Shown here in pieces: positions 6,083 through 20,748 of a stretch of 20,835 bases of DNA. The DNA comes from a virus. The notes under the pieces were generated by a model that had not been told where the DNA came from, did not search any database, and was given only the letters and a program-made list of their open reading frames with translations. Within the stretch, counting starts at the first letter, position 1. Every line of letters begins with the position of its first letter. A program made the translations under genes and the position numbers. The stretch is from the IMG/VR virus record IMGVR_UViG_3300025137_004670, positions 1-20,835 of that record. One strand, 5' to 3'.

Positions 6083-6243
6083 ATTGTTGGCACTGCGGTA
6101 CAGAATTAATTTGGGGTGGCGATCACGACCTCGAAGAAGATGAAACATATGACATGGTTACTAATTTAACCTGTCCAAACTGTCAGGCATATGTAGAAGT
6201 ATACATGCCTAGAATAATAGAAAACAACGAACAATACAATTAA
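6079..6243 (+). CDS. Small zinc-ribbon protein (54 aa)
   Basis: Two CxxC knuckles (MNCWHCGTEL at 1-10 and LTCPNCQAYV near 34-43), separated by an acidic linker, form a rubredoxin-like zinc ribbon. The MNCWHCxTELIWGGDHD type of N-terminus is, from memory, common in small proteins of marine T4-like phages. The start at 6079 is preferred over an in-frame ATG at 6025, because it gives the ATGA overlap with the upstream gene and begins right at the first knuckle. Its stop overlaps the IscU start by one base. The metal could be zinc or iron; the function is unknown, but the position next to IscU is suggestive. Confidence 0.75.
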   Translation: MNCWHCGTELIWGGDHDLEEDETYDMVTNLTCPNCQAYVEVYMPRIIENNEQYN

Positions 6244-6710
6244 TGGCATATTCAGACGAAGTAGTACAACGGTTCGAAGCCGTATTAGCAAATCCTAAAA
6301 AACATTCCGTCGGAAGTTTAGATAGGAAAGACCCGAATGTTGCAACAGGACTTGCAGGCGCGCCTGCGTGTGGTGATGTAATGCAACTACAGCTACTACT
6401 AGATGATAATGAAAAAATAATTGATGTTAAATTTAAAACATATGGTTGCGGATCAGCAATTGCATCTTCATCATTATTTGTAGACATGATGATGGGTAAG
6501 ACTATTGCAGAAGCAAAATTAATTAAAGATAAAGATATTGCAGAGGTATTAAACTTACCTCCAATTAAACTACATTGTAGCGTACTAGCAGAAGATGCTA
6601 TTAGACAGGCTATGGTAGATTATGAAACAAAGAACGACAAGGACTACAACCATCCAATATTAGACACAGCAGGGTCTATGGTGGGTCACAATAATCCACC
6701 AAATGATTGA
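6243..6710 (+). CDS. iscU: IscU-type Fe-S cluster scaffold protein
   Basis: A scaffold on which [2Fe-2S] clusters are built before transfer. Seen: nearly the whole IscU core, including GAPACGDVMQLQL (C43, D45), FKTYGCGSAIASSSL (C69) and LPPIKLHCSVLAEDAI (H111, C112), so all three cluster cysteines and the Asp are kept. LPPIK matches the LPPVK site that the HscA chaperone binds in the bacterial Isc system. The core ends near residue 128. The remaining 27 residues are an extra tail ending GHNNPPND, a type of ending I recall in other marine phage proteins. No cysteine desulfurase, HscA or HscB gene is in the window, so sulfur would come from the host or from elsewhere in the phage. Confidence 0.96.
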   Translation: MAYSDEVVQRFEAVLANPKKHSVGSLDRKDPNVATGLAGAPACGDVMQLQLLLDDNEKIIDVKFKTYGCGSAIASSSLFVDMMMGKTIAEAKLIKDKDIAEVLNLPPIKLHCSVLAEDAIRQAMVDYETKNDKDYNHPILDTAGSMVGHNNPPND

Positions 6711-7017
6711 TCTAACAGACAGAGCAATTACTCATGTTATGAATAACTTGAGAGCGGAAGGAGAATATGTTAGAATAGGTTTAATGCCTGCTGGGTGTAC
6801 AGGATTTGAATACAAAATTGATTGGGACAATGATGTATCAGCTGATGATATTATAATTGACTTCGGTAAGTTCGGAGTTGTTATAGATGTAATGTCGGCT
6901 CCAATGATAGAGGGATCTACATTGGATGTTATTACAGAAGGAATAAATACTACTGTAAAAGTTTTAAACCCAAAAGAAACAAACTCGTGCGGTTGTGGAG
7001 CAAGCGTACAATTTTAA
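6703..7017 (+). CDS. A-type Fe-S carrier (IscA/ErpA/SufA family)
   Basis: Transfers Fe-S clusters from the scaffold to target proteins. Seen: the three conserved cysteines, C32 in MPAGCTGFEY and C96/C98 in the C-terminal CGCG, at the normal spacing and in a normal length (104 aa). The N-terminus MIDLTDRAITHV fits the family. The start overlaps the IscU gene by eight bases, so the two are probably coupled and made together. Sequence alone does not separate IscA, ErpA and SufA. Confidence 0.95.
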   Translation: MIDLTDRAITHVMNNLRAEGEYVRIGLMPAGCTGFEYKIDWDNDVSADDIIIDFGKFGVVIDVMSAPMIEGSTLDVITEGINTTVKVLNPKETNSCGCGASVQF

Positions 7018-7032
7018 CTGAGGAACTATATT

Positions 7033-7278
7033 ATGACCAAGTGGCTAATTTATTCAAAGAACAACTGCCCTTATTGCGAAAAGGCTAAGTTCGAGCTTCA
7101 ACACGAAGCAGAAGTACAAGTAAAAAATATCAATGAGGATCCAGAATTCTTTACGGAATTGATGGAAAAAAATCCTAACGCAAGAACCATGCCTCAAATA
7201 TACAAAGATGATCAACTCATCGGTGGGTATGATCAACTTATTGCTCATAGAGCAATTGACGCTAAGTACGGACTATGA
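7033..7278 (+). CDS. Glutaredoxin (dithiol, CPYC)
   Basis: A small thiol-disulfide oxidoreductase reduced by glutathione. Seen: the active site NNCPYCEKAK (C12, C15), the cis-proline motif RTMPQIY, and the GGYDQL glutathione-binding segment, in the standard 81-residue length. A GAGGA ribosome binding site lies at 7020-7024. In T4-like phages glutaredoxin usually feeds electrons to ribonucleotide reductase. Here it sits right behind two Fe-S assembly genes and not far from a peroxiredoxin, so it may also serve those. The CPYC site is the dithiol type rather than the CGFS type dedicated to Fe-S work. Confidence 0.95.
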   Translation: MTKWLIYSKNNCPYCEKAKFELQHEAEVQVKNINEDPEFFTELMEKNPNARTMPQIYKDDQLIGGYDQLIAHRAIDAKYGL

Positions 7279-15198: not shown

Positions 15199-15715
15199 AT
15201 CACTAAAAGGTACAGACATTTATGATGATTTGTATGAGGGTTACACAGCAGGATTTAAGATCATGCGTAACCTGGTCGATGTTAATTTAACTGCATTAGA
15301 TGTAGTAAAAGCATATCAACATGCCGACAAGAAAAAGTATCTACAACCTCTAAAAGAAATAAACTATAACAATAGATGGTTACAATTTAAGGGAGAGTTC
15401 GAGCCTGAATCTGAAAAGGTTGCCAGGTATATGAAAAAAAGGTTTAAGTTCTCTCAACAACACATTTATGCCAATTGGATACCAGACGGATTTAGTTTTG
15501 GAAGACATAAAGATGGTATGGATGTTATTATATTGCAGTGTTGGAACACAGTTGCGTATACTGTAGAAAGCCCATATGGCGAAAAAGAAAATTCTTCTTT
15601 TGTTTTGTCGCCTGGTGATGCAATATATATACGTAGCGGGGTATATCATACTCCTATTATATTTGGCGAAAGAATGACAATGAGTTTCAGTTGGCCGTTG
15701 ACTTCCAGTCAATAG
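15182..15715 (+). CDS. Second HxD...H cupin-fold, 2OG/Fe(II) oxygenase-like protein
   Basis: A cupin/double-stranded beta-helix protein. Seen: FSFGRHKDGMD with H109-x-D111, FVLSPGDAIYIRSGVYH with H156, and R164 in FGERMTMSFSW, so the facial triad and a candidate 2-oxoglutarate-binding Arg are present. The PGD-x-x-YI block before the distal His recalls JmjC/cupin-type hydroxylases more than prolyl hydroxylases, so this is not simply a duplicate of the gene before it. It starts inside the preceding oxygenase gene, so both are probably made together. The stop lies within the spacer of the next promoter. Confidence 0.75.
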   Translation: MATQFESLKGTDIYDDLYEGYTAGFKIMRNLVDVNLTALDVVKAYQHADKKKYLQPLKEINYNNRWLQFKGEFEPESEKVARYMKKRFKFSQQHIYANWIPDGFSFGRHKDGMDVIILQCWNTVAYTVESPYGEKENSSFVLSPGDAIYIRSGVYHTPIIFGERMTMSFSWPLTSSQ

Positions 15716-15726
15716 AGCTGTATAAT
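15698..15726 (+). promoter_or_regulatory. Sigma70-type early promoter ahead of the structured leader
   Basis: TTGACT at 15698-15703, a 17-base spacer, TATAAT at 15721-15726. The predicted start near 15733 is only about five bases before the first stem of the structured RNA. The -35 lies in the end of the preceding gene. Confidence 0.87.
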
Positions 15727-15732
15727 AAACTC

Positions 15733-15840
15733 ATATTCGGTAGAGCATCTGGTAGCTCTACCCGCGGAAAGACAATCAAGAGCGGGGGATTGTCGGATAA
15801 ATGGGCGAGGGTACAGAACGAGGGGCCACATTATCACCTT
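15733..15840 (+). ncRNA. Structured, probably pseudoknotted 5' leader RNA (candidate riboswitch-like element)
   Basis: A GC-rich noncoding stretch in an AT-rich genome, right after a strong promoter. Seen: stem A GGTAGAGC (15739-15746) with GCTCTACC (15755-15762), eight pairs; stem B GACAATC (15771-15777) with GATTGTC (15788-15794), seven pairs. The loop of B contains GCGGG (15782-15786), complementary to CCCGC at 15761-15765, giving an H-type pseudoknot. A third stem can form between GATAA (15796-15800) and TTATC (15831-15835), extended by TGG with CCA. Its purine-rich loop holds AGGGT (15808-15812), able to pair with ACCTT (15836-15840), one pair being G-U. It could be a cis-regulator of the gene at 15861 or an independent small RNA. 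Phage-associated motifs such as manA and wcaG are possible relatives, but I cannot verify that. Confidence 0.65.
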
Positions 15841-15860
15841 TAATATTAACAGGACAGTGA

Positions 15861-16769
15861 ATGCCAAATAATCCGGACACACCATTTAGATTAGATCATC
15901 CTCTCCAAGACTATAAAGAACATAGTATAAGAGATAACTTTGATCCTTTAATAATCAATTGGAAAGGTAAGATAGGTTACGGTGATATAATATCACCAAT
16001 TTCGTATGCTTATAATATGGCAGAAAAGAACAGTACAGATGTAGTTCTAAAATTCCATTGGCCAGATCCTGAACCTAAGTTATATAAAGAATCAGATTCA
16101 GAAACTATCCAACAATGGATATCTATAACAAACAACATAATAAAGAAACCTCCTTTCTGGGATGTAGGAATAGAACACGTATACGATAGTCCTCTAGGAT
16201 ACAATCATGACAATTATGACTCAAAAGATATGGAGCTTCATAACATGAGATTCTCTCAATACGGGATGAATGATGGGGACAATGCTTTTAGTACATACAA
16301 TAAAATTACTATGGTTACTAGCATTAAACACAAACAACAATTAGCCGACTACGACGCTGGCAAAGCATGGAAGGACCCGCTCGCAAACACACCTTCCGGA
16401 ATGGCTTGGCCAAGAGTAGGAGACCTAATTAAGAAACGTGGATGGGATCCTAGACACGTACATTATGCAACACCAATGAAAAAAGTTGTTGACTTAATGT
16501 TGCAAAGTAGGGGTGTTATAGGGTATCATGGAGCCCATATGTGGATTGCTAGACTACTAGGCATGCCAATGATTATATTTTCAAAAGGCAGCTTAACTAA
16601 AAAAGCATTCCCATGGGCAATAATATTTGAATACTGGAGTGATTATCACCCAGAACTTACTGAAGAATATTTTCAGCAAAGTATACAAAAGAGAGAGGAA
16701 TGGATACATGAGTACAAATACTGGCTCACAGAACCAAATTTTCATAGGTTACGACAGCAGAGAAACTAG
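15861..16769 (+). CDS. Glycosyltransferase-like protein (GT9-like C-terminus, tentative)
   Basis: A soluble 302-aa protein. The N-terminus has GKIGYGDIISPISYAYNMA, like the first strand-loop-helix of a GT-B Rossmann domain. The C-terminal part has GVIGYHGAHMWIARLLGMPMIIF, which resembles the donor-domain motif of heptosyltransferase-type (GT9) enzymes (D-S-G-x-x-H-x-A). It is not a full match, so this is tentative; the genomic context (next to two further glycosyltransferases) supports it. The weak ribosome binding site AGGA (15851-15854) follows the structured leader, so translation may depend on leader folding. Confidence 0.6.
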   Translation: MPNNPDTPFRLDHPLQDYKEHSIRDNFDPLIINWKGKIGYGDIISPISYAYNMAEKNSTDVVLKFHWPDPEPKLYKESDSETIQQWISITNNIIKKPPFWDVGIEHVYDSPLGYNHDNYDSKDMELHNMRFSQYGMNDGDNAFSTYNKITMVTSIKHKQQLADYDAGKAWKDPLANTPSGMAWPRVGDLIKKRGWDPRHVHYATPMKKVVDLMLQSRGVIGYHGAHMWIARLLGMPMIIFSKGSLTKKAFPWAIIFEYWSDYHPELTEEYFQQSIQKREEWIHEYKYWLTEPNFHRLRQQRN

Positions 16770-17400
16770 AGCATACGAAGTATGCGAATACAGCTTACGT
16801 AATTCTAAACTAAAAGTCAATAAACTTTTTAGTGAAGATATTGAATCCTATAACCGTAACTGGGGAGAGGTTCAATCAACCGACTTTACATTTACCAGAT
16901 TCTGGGTACCATTCTTATCCAACTTTAAAGGGTGGTCATTCTTTGTTGATTGTGATTTTCTTTTCTTAGATGATCCAGCTAAGCTAATAGATACATTTGA
17001 CAATAGCAAAGCAGCATATTGCTGTCAGCATCCTGGATATATTCCTAACAGTCAAATAAAAATGGATGGCGTTCCTCAGCACAGAGCGTTTAGAAAAAAC
17101 TGGGCTAGCTTTATGGCTTTTAACAACGAACATCCTTCTAATAAAATATTGACACCAGAGTATTGTAACAATCATAGACCAGGATTAGATTTCCACCAAT
17201 TAAGATGGCTTGATGATGAAGAAATAGGAAGCATACCTTTAGAATGGAATTGCTTAGACGACTACTACCACTTAGACAATCCAAAGGCTATTCATTATAC
17301 AGATGGCGGACCTTGGTTTGATGACTACACTGAAACTTTTTATAGCAGCAGATGGATAAAAGCAGAGCAAGAGATGCTCAATAATCGTTGGGCAACATAG
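16708..17400 (+). CDS. GT-A glycosyltransferase-like protein (DxD motif)
   Basis: Starts FIGYDSRETRAYEVCEYSL, typical of GT8-like or related enzymes that take a nucleotide sugar in an N-terminal Rossmann-type fold. D81-C82-D83 in FFVDCDFLFLDD is the metal-binding DxD. RFWVPFLSNFKGW precedes it, as in the family, and PWFDDYTETFY near the C-terminus may contact the acceptor. I chose the ATG at 16708 because GAGAGGAA (16692-16699) lies eight bases upstream; an in-frame ATG at 16627 would run 27 residues further into the preceding gene without a good site. The overlap with that gene is 62 bases. Confidence 0.85.
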   Translation: MSTNTGSQNQIFIGYDSRETRAYEVCEYSLRNSKLKVNKLFSEDIESYNRNWGEVQSTDFTFTRFWVPFLSNFKGWSFFVDCDFLFLDDPAKLIDTFDNSKAAYCCQHPGYIPNSQIKMDGVPQHRAFRKNWASFMAFNNEHPSNKILTPEYCNNHRPGLDFHQLRWLDDEEIGSIPLEWNCLDDYYHLDNPKAIHYTDGGPWFDDYTETFYSSRWIKAEQEMLNNRWAT

Positions 17401-17401
17401 T

Positions 17402-18202
17402 ATGACAACAGCAAAAACATTAAATGATCTCACCGTAATTATGACCTGGTATGGCCAAGAGAATCATTTGTTTAATCAAATGCAATTCTATAATTCTATG
17501 GCACAGCAGTATCCTCATTTGACTCCTAGACTAATAGTAATAAATGATGGCCATGAAAAAGGCAGAGACTATTTTAGAGAAGTAATTAAAGTACACAGAG
17601 ACAGATTTGATCTTACAGGCATTGATGTAATGGAAGATATGGGATTTAATTCTCATGCTTGTAGAAACATAGGCGTTAAGCAATGTAAGACCGATTGGAT
17701 GTTATTAATGGATGTTGATTGCTTTGAGTCTGTTGGAATGTACAAGTATTTAAGATTCTTTAAAGAATTAAAAGATGGCATGTGGTATGCTCCTAAAGCA
17801 GATATGGAGATGCCGGAAGAAATGTCTTCATATGAATTGCTGGATCCCAAAGGAATAATTAAATACGTGACACATCCTAATACATGGATAATGAGCAAAG
17901 AATGTTTTTGGTCCACAGGTGGATATGATTTAGAGTTTCAGGGTGTAAGGCATGGTGATGCAGAATTCTTTACTGGTATTGGAAGACCGGGCGTTAAGGA
18001 ATGGGATTATGATTTGCTATCTGATTCTGATAACCATAGAATGATTGTTAAGGTTCCAAAGAGGGATCCATTCTATATTAGACAGGAGTCAAGAAAGCAG
18101 AAACAAGCATCTCCAATAATAAACTTTGTAAGGGTCAAGAATTTGGATCCTTATAAAAAATATAGGAAAAGATTATGGAACACTCCATGGGAGTTTGTGT
18201 GA
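17402..18202 (+). CDS. GT2-family glycosyltransferase
   Basis: A GT-A inverting-type enzyme. Seen: NDLTVIMTWYGQ at the N-terminus, RLIVINDGHE, then NSHACRNIGVKQCKTDWMLLMDVDCF, with D104-V-D106 as the DxD metal site. WIMSKECFWSTGGYDLEFQGVRHGDAEFF is the usual acceptor-side GG-x-D...E/D-D block of family 2. The length, 266 aa, fits a single-domain enzyme. It starts one base after the stop of the previous glycosyltransferase, so the pair are likely to act on the same glycan. The gp33 gene overlaps its end by four bases. Confidence 0.9.
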   Translation: MTTAKTLNDLTVIMTWYGQENHLFNQMQFYNSMAQQYPHLTPRLIVINDGHEKGRDYFREVIKVHRDRFDLTGIDVMEDMGFNSHACRNIGVKQCKTDWMLLMDVDCFESVGMYKYLRFFKELKDGMWYAPKADMEMPEEMSSYELLDPKGIIKYVTHPNTWIMSKECFWSTGGYDLEFQGVRHGDAEFFTGIGRPGVKEWDYDLLSDSDNHRMIVKVPKRDPFYIRQESRKQKQASPIINFVRVKNLDPYKKYRKRLWNTPWEFV

Positions 18203-18462
18203 GTAAGAAACAAGTAGAGCTGAAAGTATTATCATCAGCTGAATTTGCTCGTGCTATTGAAGAAGCTGTAGTAGATGCAAAAGGTAAGATAACTCACCTT
18301 GATGCAGTACAAGACTTTTTAGAAAGAAACGAAGAAGTAGAACCAGAAACACTGGCGTCTCTAATACAGAGAAATCAAAAGCTAAAGGCAATCTTGTATG
18401 AGAACGCAGAAGGTTTAAACCTCGTTCAAAAACAAAGTAGATTACCTTTAGATGAAGAATAA
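18199..18462 (+). CDS. 33: gp33-like late-transcription accessory protein
   Basis: In T4, gp33 binds host RNA polymerase and links the sliding clamp to late transcription. Seen: a small acidic helical protein; the segment ITHLDAVQDFLERNEEVEPETLASLI resembles the gp33 core (x-LEA-x-x-x-FLEEN-x), and the C-terminus RLPLDEE recalls the hydrophobic-acidic end that contacts the clamp in T4 gp33. The position next to gp59 and gp32 supports this strongly. The GTG at 18199 is preferred: GGGAG at 18189-18193 is well spaced and the start makes a GTGA overlap with the previous stop. An ATG at 18175 would add eight residues. Confidence 0.75.
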   Translation: MSKKQVELKVLSSAEFARAIEEAVVDAKGKITHLDAVQDFLERNEEVEPETLASLIQRNQKLKAILYENAEGLNLVQKQSRLPLDEE

Positions 18463-19234
18463 ACCGTACGATTTAAAAGATGCAGATTGCATATTGGCCA
18501 TGTCTGGCGGTATGGATTGTGTTGCATTATTACATTGGCTTTTGAAGAATGGAAGAAAGCCATACATCTTTAGATATGAGTTTACATCTAACATAAAAAA
18601 TAATGCATGGCATAGATCAGTAATAAAAAAAATAGAAGACTATTATAATGTCAATGTAATCAATTGGAAATTAGAGCCAGAACACAATCTCAATGGCTTT
18701 ATAGACAGAGAAAGAACAAAAAAATACAATAAAGATAAACCTAGAACAGCAGGCATATCTAATACAATACCAATATTATCTAAATGGCCTGCAATAGCAT
18801 ATATGATTAATTTTGCAAATCCATGGATTAAAGAAATACATTTTGGTATGTGCTATGGAGGACAGCTAGAATTTGATGATGGACGTGCAGATGGGCTGTA
18901 TGACTACAATGAAGATGGCGTACTAGAGCGAAGACCTGCAATGCCATTTGGACTAGACGCAACCAACTATGATGATAGGCATAAAAAATTATTTGATGGA
19001 TACATCAGCAATCTTAAAGACTACGGAATACATACAGAGTTTAAATCACCTATAGGTCATAGAACTAAATTACATTTATGGAATACGTTACCAAGAGAAA
19101 TGCAAAAAGCTGTTGTCACTTGTGGCGATCTAGTGTATAATAAAGATAATACAAAAGTAATTGGTGAATGCGGCAAGTGTATTAAGTGTCGCGAATTAAA
19201 TGGAGTAAAGAACTTTGCTGCAAGGCAGGCTTAA
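18452..19234 (+). CDS. QueC-like PP-loop ATPase (7-cyano-7-deazaguanine synthase type)
   Basis: An adenine-nucleotide alpha-hydrolase-fold enzyme. Seen: ILAMSGGMDCVALLHWLL (PP-loop S18-G-G-x-D22, with Cys instead of the usual Ser at 23) and a C-terminal zinc-type cysteine set, C224, C240, C243 and C246 (GECGKCIKCREL), like the C...CGxCxxC cluster of QueC. QueC converts 7-carboxy-7-deazaguanine to preQ0, used in queuosine tRNA or in 7-deazaguanine DNA modification, which several phages carry out. At 260 aa it is slightly longer than QueC (about 230). No queD, queE, folE or transglycosylase gene is in the window. It is inserted between gp33 and gp59, where T4 has none. It could also be another PP-loop enzyme with an unknown substrate. 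Confidence 0.75.
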   Translation: MKNKPYDLKDADCILAMSGGMDCVALLHWLLKNGRKPYIFRYEFTSNIKNNAWHRSVIKKIEDYYNVNVINWKLEPEHNLNGFIDRERTKKYNKDKPRTAGISNTIPILSKWPAIAYMINFANPWIKEIHFGMCYGGQLEFDDGRADGLYDYNEDGVLERRPAMPFGLDATNYDDRHKKLFDGYISNLKDYGIHTEFKSPIGHRTKLHLWNTLPREMQKAVVTCGDLVYNKDNTKVIGECGKCIKCRELNGVKNFAARQA

Positions 19235-19238
19235 ACAA

Positions 19239-19820
19239 GTGGACCCATATGACGCATATGTAAAATACTTAGCACTGAAGTCTCACTTTAGTGACAAGAA
19301 CTACGACTATTTTAAATACAATGGTAAAGTCAAAGCCTGGCGCCAGACATTTGAAACAAGAAAAGACAAATACTTTTTCTATAAACTAAGCAAGAAGAAA
19401 GACCCAGTGGAGTTTCTTGTAGCTAACTTTATAGGTAGTAAAGATTTTTATATTGGCAGTATAAGAGAAGATAGTGCTGAAGACATCTACATGGAATATA
19501 AAAAGAGACATCAATCTCTAACTTATATTTTTAAAGGCGATATAGCTAAAATGAAAGATGACTTCAATGACAATATCATTGTGCCTAAGAACGAGCATCC
19601 TTATCTATTGAGATTATATATGCGTGGAGATATTTGTATTGAAACGTTGACTTTAATTAATAGATGTTGTAAAATGTTCGCATATTGGGATAAAGAATTA
19701 AGTGATGATATTATGTGGCCTGACATTAAATTGAAAGCCATAAAGTACCAACCCTTTCTTAATGTTGATATAAATAAGTATAGAGAGATAATACTCTCTA
19801 ATTTTAATAAAACGCAATAA
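19239..19820 (+). CDS. 59: gp59-like DNA helicase loader
   Basis: In T4, gp59 binds forks and gp32-coated ssDNA and loads the gp41 helicase. Seen: DPYDAYVKYLALKSHF at the N-terminus and ETRKDKYFFYKLSKKKDPVEF, nearly identical in pattern to T4 RRDKYFFQKLSEK, then LVANFIGSKDFYIGSI (T4 NLVANQDAWIGDI) and a helical C-terminal domain. At 193 aa it is slightly shorter than T4's 217. I prefer the GTG at 19239, five bases after the preceding stop. An upstream TTG at 19215 would overlap the QueC-like gene. A promoter for gp32 lies inside its second half. Confidence 0.88.
   Translation: MDPYDAYVKYLALKSHFSDKNYDYFKYNGKVKAWRQTFETRKDKYFFYKLSKKKDPVEFLVANFIGSKDFYIGSIREDSAEDIYMEYKKRHQSLTYIFKGDIAKMKDDFNDNIIVPKNEHPYLLRLYMRGDICIETLTLINRCCKMFAYWDKELSDDIMWPDIKLKAIKYQPFLNVDINKYREIILSNFNKTQ
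19647..19675 (+). promoter_or_regulatory. Candidate gp32 promoter inside gp59
   Basis: TTGACT at 19647-19652, a 17-base spacer, TAAAAT at 19670-19675 (five of six). The GTTGACTTT context is the same as in the other promoters of this window. It would give gp32 mRNA a leader of about 170 bases. Confidence 0.6.
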
Positions 19821-19848
19821 ATCGCATACAACGCATATAGGAGTAAAT
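19781..19848 (+). promoter_or_regulatory. gp32 leader: hairpin and CGCATA repeats, possible autoregulatory site
   Basis: A perfect seven-pair inverted repeat, TAGAGAG (19781-19787) and CTCTCTA (19794-19800) with loop ATAATA, lies in the last codons of gp59. Three spaced CGCA(T/A) units follow at 19813, 19823 and 19832, then the ribosome binding site AGGAG (19839-19843) and the gp32 ATG. T4 gp32 represses its own translation by binding a leader that contains a pseudoknot and an unstructured repeat region, so a similar function is plausible but not shown. Confidence 0.4.
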
Positions 19849-20748
19849 ATGACTGATTCATTCGGCGCACTCAAGCGCAATAGAGCTGAAGGTTTTGATA
19901 AGCTAACAGCATCCCTTAATAAACTACAATCTAAGTCTAGCGGACCTGGACCTGATGAACGTTTCTGGAAACCAGAAGTCGACAAAGCAGGTAACGGTTA
20001 TGCTGTAATTAGATTCCTACCTGAGTCTGAAGGAGAGGATGTCCCATTCGTAAGAGTGTGGGATCATGGCTTCCAAGGAACTGGTGGTTGGTATATTGAG
20101 AACTCTCTGACCACTCTTGGTCAAAAAGATCCAGTATCTGAGTATAACTCAATGTTATGGAACTCTGGTATTGAAGCCAATAAAGATAAAGCTAGAAAAC
20201 AGAAAAGACGTTTGTCCTTTGTTTCTAATATCTATGTTGTTAAAGATCCATCTAATCCAGAAAACGAAGGAAAAGTATTCCTTTACAAGTTTGGTAAAAA
20301 AATCTTTGACAAACTAAACGAATCTATGAACCCGCAGTTCGAAGATGAGTCACCAATCAACCCATTTGATTTATGGGAAGGTGCTGACTTCAAACTAAAG
20401 ATTAGAAACGTAGAAGGATTTAGAAACTATGATAAATCTGAGCTAGACGTTTCAGCTCCTTTATCTGATGATGATGAGCAATTAGAGCAAGTATGGAAAT
20501 CACAGCACATGCTTCAAGAGTTTGTTAATCCTACTAACTTTAAAACTTATGAGGAACTTCAATCGAAGCTCAATAGAGTGTTAGGTCTTGATGGAGCAGC
20601 TCCATCTACAACAGCAGAATCTAGTTTTGGTTCTGAGCCAGCAGCTGAAATACCATCAGCTCCAGCAGCACCTGTTGCACCAGAAGTTATGTCATCAGAA
20701 TCTGATGATGAGTCTTTAGATTTCTTTAAGAAATTAGCCGAAGACTAA
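19849..20748 (+). CDS. 32: gp32-like single-stranded DNA-binding protein
   Basis: Coats ssDNA during replication and recombination and recruits gp59 and RNase H. Seen: a basic N-terminal arm (LKRNRAEGF), FWKPEVDKAGNGYAVIRFLPESEGE, DHGFQGTGGWYIE, VSNIYVVKDPSNPENEGKVFLYKFGKKIFDKLNE, NPFDLWEGADFKLKIRNVEGFRNYD and an acidic C-terminal tail (about 245-299, ending DESLDFFKKLAED) that in T4 binds partner proteins. The order and spacing match T4 gp32 (301 aa; here 299). Odd: the T4 zinc-binding cysteines are replaced; H73 is kept, but the C-P-V-C site reads D94-P-V-S97 and the first Cys is absent, so it should fold without zinc. The C-terminal linker is Ala/Pro/Ser-rich. Confidence 0.97.
   Translation: MTDSFGALKRNRAEGFDKLTASLNKLQSKSSGPGPDERFWKPEVDKAGNGYAVIRFLPESEGEDVPFVRVWDHGFQGTGGWYIENSLTTLGQKDPVSEYNSMLWNSGIEANKDKARKQKRRLSFVSNIYVVKDPSNPENEGKVFLYKFGKKIFDKLNESMNPQFEDESPINPFDLWEGADFKLKIRNVEGFRNYDKSELDVSAPLSDDDEQLEQVWKSQHMLQEFVNPTNFKTYEELQSKLNRVLGLDGAAPSTTAESSFGSEPAAEIPSAPAAPVAPEVMSSESDDESLDFFKKLAED

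Follow-up and report, generated by a model that had tools for sequence, protein, structure and literature searches.

Among described structured RNAs, SAM-II and preQ1 are small H-type pseudoknot riboswitches, and the put RNA of phage HK022 is a structured antitermination RNA placed at the start of an early phage transcript. In marine phages, manA and wcaG are described as leader RNAs, wcaG occurring near exopolysaccharide or high-light genes (PMC2864571). The methylophage Melnitz carries a glutamine riboswitch (glnA) near ssrA and a transcription coactivator gene (PMC9004378), and a riboswitch scan in pelagimyophages was reported as negative (PMC7029224). We found no description of the RNA presented here (15733-15841) in the parts of the literature accessible to our search.

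The window, i.e., the whole stretch of DNA that we analysed (20,835 nucleotides, IMG/VR record IMGVR_UViG_3300025137_004670), is a fragment of the genome of an uncultured T4-like phage. Pfam and PHROGs identify gp33-like, gp59, and gp32 genes downstream of the element, the gp32 resembling that of Kyanoviridae phages. A JmjC-like gene ends at 15715 and the next start codon is at 15861; part of a promoter and a GC-rich element lie between them. The features are the following:

15698..15726, + strand: sigma70-type promoter, TTGACT-17-TATAAT, with 11/12 consensus matches
15733..15841, + strand: candidate structured leader RNA of a new family, ~105 nt, from the predicted start to the end of the conserved tail
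15739..15762, + strand: P1 hairpin, 8 bp (15739-15746/15755-15762), its loop containing TCTGGT (15748-15753), invariant in 33 variants
15763..15770, + strand: linker NGYGGNAA, whose CGC (15763-15765) is complementary to GCG (15782-15784) in the P2 loop
15771..15794, + strand: P2 hairpin, 7 bp (15771-15777/15788-15794), its loop containing GAGCGGG (15780-15786), invariant in 33 variants
15796..15835, + strand: P3 hairpin, 10 bp (15796-15806/15825-15835), with a bulged purine at 15828
15836..15841, + strand: 3′ tail ACCTTT, conserved, mostly AYYTT in relatives
15861..16769, + strand: first operon gene, heptosyltransferase-like protein (fold match)
16675..17400, + strand: second operon gene, putatively GT8-like (phrog_28018, function not annotated; weak fold match)
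17402..20748, + strand: GT2, gp33-like coactivator, QueC-like, gp59, and gp32 genes (Pfam/PHROGs)

The position of the promoter predicts a transcript start near 15733, 5-7 nt before P1, in agreement with a previous reading of this DNA from its letters alone (hereafter, the sequence-only reading), which placed the start about five bases before the fold. That reading also described a GC-rich fold in an AT-rich genome, and the 145-nt intergenic region holding the element does reach 46% G+C, versus 36% in the window overall and 24-28% in the other three intergenic regions longer than 90 nt, none of which is GC-rich. The promoter pattern matched upstream of the RNA in 30 of 32 parsed variants, the two misses being L012 (TTGACA-17-TATACT, seen for the same variant in a separate check) and L023, whose contig begins too near the RNA. 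This promoter is not special to the RNA, since the same type recurs elsewhere in the window (2503, 3590, and 13579, plus 11060 and 12871 on the minus strand), where it precedes genes without such a leader. Together with the one ending at 15726, these promoters make up a near-identical early-type set, with TTGACT or TTGACC, a spacing of exactly 17 nt, and TATAAT.

The Rfam scan that had been proposed as a check gave no match in the window at the Rfam 15 cut-offs. Relaxing the threshold to E ≤ 10 brought up a single snoRNA match below the cut-off in the window (15642-15737), lying almost wholly before the element, and the elements of six relatives gave no match. With this library, tRNAs, tmRNAs, manA, and wcaG are recovered from related phages, including manA in P-SSM4 and wcaG in cyanophage DSL-LC02. 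Membership in manA or wcaG, which the sequence-only reading had envisaged, does not hold: neither manA (RF01745) nor wcaG (RF01761) matched the window element or the six relatives even at E ≤ 10, and in alignments the consensus and helix layout of true cyanophage members are unlike those of the window RNA. What they have in common with it is being structured RNAs in the potential 5′ UTR of marine T4-like phages (PMC2864571), as well as, for wcaG, a similar size. The alternative contemplated in that reading, a new RNA, is the one in agreement with the scan, and we class the window RNA as a new family among the structured leader or noncoding RNAs of phages, a kind already known. With SAM-II and preQ1 it shares a possible pairing of a hairpin loop with upstream sequence near a start codon, although its pseudoknot stem has only 2-3 bp and Rfam shows no match. 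It resembles the put RNA of HK022 in description, as a structured RNA starting an early phage transcript. The Melnitz riboswitch is likewise a phage RNA element in a region with a coactivator gene (PMC9004378), but the window has no glnA match. Permuted tmRNAs (RF04321, RF01849) occupy the same place upstream of the same operon in several related phages. However, the RNA-bearing sequences tried have no tmRNA match: ARAGORN predicted none in the window or in the RNA-bearing loci tried, and RF04321 was found in 0 of 16 RNA-bearing contigs versus 8 of 8 others, six of these being previously known positives. We also rejected mimicry of 16S or 23S rRNA through short look-alikes, for which nhmmer gave no match; among the five segments compared, the score of the best one (the linker) was reached by 4 of 60 shuffles and those of the others by 13-47 of 60, the test of the apical segment being flawed because its best score fell on the spacer between the two rRNAs.

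Comparison among relatives indicates that the ~105-nt element is almost certainly a real conserved RNA family. Using the first downstream protein as query we fetched 58 loci, part of which show the element directly upstream, and a DNA pattern derived from its loops retrieved 38 viral-contig stretches, some with another gene between the RNA and the operon. The loci gathered contain 33 distinct variants of the RNA. A covariance model built from 11 sequences (R1) matches 43 of the 63 searched sources at E ≤ 1e-10, and each of the 10 phage contigs searched whole has a single copy. Out of 11 further records R1 matches one, the remote member L176 (40.2 bits), which deviates from the invariant bases (TCTGAC, GAGTGGG, and a shorter apical loop) and sits after a UDP-sugar dehydrogenase gene, a different upstream gene, yet with the same operon downstream. 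By eye, L176:567-640 shows a longer branched P1 region, which the minimum-energy fold of this member does not reproduce, and no promoter precedes it. Five DNA patterns aimed at more distant members in viral contigs produced some extra matches that looked like chance upon inspection, the last patterns giving one R1 match (E 0.16) in GC-rich DNA. Concerning a host-encoded homologue, none of 14 pattern matches in genome contigs had an R1 match, and R1 matched 0 of 282 genomes of one phylum (strict filters, no positive control among them), a weak result.

The support for the fold comes from this comparison, with covariation above controls, and not from the folding energy of single sequences. The latter is unexceptional in the window (z -1.08 and -1.44), ranges from z -2.34 to 0.92 over six members, window included, and is 0.43 in L176; the minimum-energy folds of L016, L063, and L176 differ partly from the three-helix consensus. 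When 32 variants are aligned to R1, 99.7% of pair cells are standard, 178 cells show double changes versus 9-22 with partners slid, and 17 of 24 pairs have double changes, with a covariation score of 0.653 versus 0.03-0.08 for slid partners. None of 500 shuffles reaches the observed standard-pair percentage, double-change cells, or score, 3 reach the count of pairs with double changes, and 11 the count of pair types, the alignment in the slid-partner and shuffle tests having been fitted to the structure. In this structure-fitted alignment, double changes occur in 6 of the 7 modelled pairs of P1, in 4 of 7 pairs of P2, with all cells paired, and in 7 of 10 pairs of P3, with 99.4% of cells paired. 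The second test, which was purpose-written, used a sequence-landmark alignment, left P1 out, and relied on a null that keeps the tree and the substitution counts; among 3,403 column pairs in 31 distinct rows, six had E < 0.05, two of them in P2 and four in P3. Thus, the covariation analysis of homologous leaders that the sequence-only reading had named as a check was passed against both slid controls and the tree-preserving null. It upholds a structured RNA of three conserved helices with a near-consensus promoter directly upstream; the two perfect stems of 8 and 7 pairs are P1 and P2, located as that reading had them.

The helices change much more than some of the bases that they hold apart: P1 pairs change type between phages and the hairpin around TCTGGT stays, while ~30 unpaired bases are invariant among the 33 variants, namely TCTGGT, most of GNGGNAA, GAGCGGG, and most of the P3 apical loop, GAGGGTACAGAACGAGGG (15807-15824) in the window. 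The tail has A in 33 of 33 variants, followed by TC (14), CC (11), or CT (8) and never by TT (hypergeometric 0.005, not corrected for relatedness), and L176 has the same tail. Two tertiary pairings had been drawn on these helices. The loop-to-upstream pairing of CCCGC with GCGGG takes two Cs already paired in P1, and what is conserved in the family is its centre, a 2-bp GY-GC core. In the 33 rows of alignment A5, the pair 15764-15783 is G-C in 32 and A-U in L176, and 15765-15782 is C-G in 18, U-G in 14, and a broken A-G in one; the third pair, 15763-15784, is standard in only 9. The linker and the P2 loop probably form a short H-type pseudoknot, the one compensatory change being suggestive. 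The third stem is also real, in the form of the bulged 10-bp P3, but the pairing of its loop with the downstream tail (AGGGT-ACCTT) cannot coexist with it: as the tail begins with zero nucleotides after P3 ends, the two are mutually exclusive. We therefore rejected this second pseudoknot, for which 93.1% of cells pair but 261 of 500 shuffles do equally well, and whose forced alternative is 3.6-9.7 kcal/mol weaker in seven sequences.

Across the 35 contexts listed, and within the reach of each contig, the RNA heads the same gene order on the same strand: heptosyltransferase-like, GT8-like, GT2, gp33, gp59, and gp32, with a QueC-like gene in some. The first protein has no match in Pfam, NCBIfam, or PDB sequences, and its AlphaFold model (pLDDT 74.7) finds the heptosyltransferase TibC as best Foldseek match (E 2.8e-5, TM-score 0.41), which suggests a heptosyltransferase-like fold. 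The low-confidence model of the second (pLDDT 59.9) has glycosyltransferases as top Foldseek matches (best E 7e-3), a weak match consistent with a GT8-like protein, and the third is a Pfam GT2, in line with the three-gene glycosyltransferase block that had been described behind the RNA. The first gene varies between phages (heptosyltransferase-like, methyltransferase, GroES, or BFD-like ferredoxin), the inserted genes lying between the RNA and the operon and not between the promoter and the RNA. The first open frame has its assigned start codon 10-38 nt downstream of P3 in all 33 variants, this frame being short and doubtful in L010, L011, and L033; no Shine-Dalgarno sequence was seen in L004 and L005.

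We tentatively read this new family as a 5′ leader that acts in cis on the early operon of a single uncultured clade of T4-like phages, a reading to which we give somewhat less than an even chance. The domain folded at the start of the transcript would act in cis, its conserved G-rich loops would recognise a ligand or a protein, and this recognition would set the expression of the operon, the first start codon of which follows P3 so closely. Given the variable first gene, regulation would bear on the operon as a whole (surface glycosyltransferases together with gp33, gp59, and gp32), and this variation argues against a switch for one gene product. In favour of a leader are the covariation and the invariant loops beside changing stems, as in binding domains, together with the promoter directly upstream, the same strand and operon in all 35 contexts, the single copy per contig, the spacing of the start codon, and the lack of a terminator-like site right after P3 in the window. 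The RNA of L176 also precedes the same operon despite another upstream gene and no promoter seen. As general for riboswitches, a conserved structured domain lies in the 5′ leader, as defined by the predicted transcript start. Several points speak against this reading: neither a terminator switch nor a sequestered ribosome-binding site was found, the gene following the RNA is not constant, the same type of promoter is found elsewhere without a leader, and some minimum-energy folds do not have all three helices. The spacing of the start codon is not diagnostic, since it is equally close after the tmRNA of L177. Metabolite sensing by a leader RNA, as the sequence-only reading had imagined, may hold, and so may a stand-alone RNA.

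This second option supposes a noncoding RNA that is processed out of the operon transcript, has come to occupy the slot of the tmRNA, and acts in trans on a target of the host or the phage, such as the ribosome, the polymerase, or mRNAs. It seems to us unlikely but deserving serious attention, because a start codon follows the L177 tmRNA equally closely, the gene behind the RNA differs between phages, and we found no expression platform. Its credibility increases since several relatives have a tmRNA in the same slot. In 19 contrasting loci with a distant version of the first operon gene (L040-L058), tmRNA is present in 17, 13 of them detected by ARAGORN, three by Rfam (L041, L045, and L046), and one by further search (L044). 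It lies within ~800 nt upstream of the heptosyltransferase-like gene in 10 (L041-L049 and L055), and likewise upstream of the operon in L185. In L177, it is located between a DUF932 gene and a methyltransferase-like (by eye)-2OG-glycosyltransferase block, behind a promoter-like sequence and with no terminator seen before the next gene. R1 has no match below E 0.86 in L040-L058 (this weak one, L050, was not counted as a member) and, beyond them, only the L176 match already mentioned; the RF04321 contrast and the insertion of genes always downstream of the RNA point in the same direction. No searched contig has both RNA and tmRNA, but these contigs are fragments and a tmRNA could lie elsewhere. 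The slot is not fixed either: the tmRNA is at another place in 7 of the 19 loci (L050-L054, L057, and L058) and none was found in L040, whose contig is cut close to the slot, and L056, so that replacement is only one possible history. The RNA has its own promoter, as for a stand-alone small RNA, in the window and nearly all variants, none being visible in L176; by contrast, no terminator or known processing site is found and the RNA stays at the head of the operon in the contigs seen. The more specific proposal, in which the phage tmRNA of one T4-like lineage gave way to a trans-acting RNA of a new class, released from the early operon transcript to act through its G-rich loops on the host translation or transcription machinery, appears improbable. 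As an observation in its own right, permuted two-piece tmRNA genes head the glycosyltransferase-gp33-gp59-gp32 operon in L177 (2833-3130), L041, L043, L045, L046, L048, L049, and L055.

The RNA was found in one phage clade. In the gp32 tree (32 rows, from 37 loci offered), a single branch (support 92/92, present in 94% of bootstrap trees) groups the 18 RNA-bearing rows; L176 is the first to diverge, and L181, for which the contig does not reach the slot, falls inside the group; 11 contrasting rows were hand-labelled as tmRNA type, with two (L040 and L178) without a tmRNA seen. The RNA label requires at least three changes on the tree of the GT8 gene versus one on that of gp32, and the glycosyltransferase gene may recombine. 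Most simply, the RNA was gained once, perhaps by taking the place of a tmRNA. The data also point to a single site, at the start of the gp33-gp59-gp32 operon, where related phages carry different structured RNAs.

It is quite improbable that the leader works like the HK022 put RNA, by binding RNA polymerase so that it reads through terminators along the operon. The RNA does appear tied to the promoter rather than to one gene and heads a ~5-kb operon, in a window with 11 terminator-like sites on both strands, four of them on the + strand, versus 2.6 in shuffles. However, these sites are weak and mostly within genes, and the RNA of L176 lies behind another gene without visible promoter. In many of 25 loci, visual inspection shows a hairpin followed by a T-rich stretch where gp59 ends, which would suit antitermination, but this hairpin is missing, again by eye, in the L034/L035/L088 group. 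A passive 5′ structure protecting the early mRNA from degradation is very improbable, since, even with hairpins a few bases from the predicted start, it would not need ~30 invariant unpaired bases.

For an uncultured phage lineage, this is a covariation-supported RNA family that Rfam 15 lacks, and its sequence, fold, and approximate limits are known precisely enough for bench work. If cis-acting, it would imply joint control of surface-glycan genes and of replication and late-transcription genes; if trans-acting, it could be a phage substitute for tmRNA.

Other observations concern the remainder of the window and gp32. From translations and by eye, we recognised a cyclase-like protein gene (7-1836) and a cluster of iron-sulphur assembly-like and glutaredoxin-like genes (6243-7278). 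The gp32 leader (19801-19848 in the window, and in 24 relatives) contains, by eye, repeated A/T-rich units of ~10 nt with ACG or CCG, possibly a site of gp32 self-regulation. In the Pelagibacter phage HTVC008M (KC465899.1, 5037-5223; L156:1501-1687), a sub-threshold manA-like RNA (25.9 bits, cut-off 55.2) sits just upstream of the gp32 gene, so that structured leaders may be a repeated feature near gp32 in these phages.
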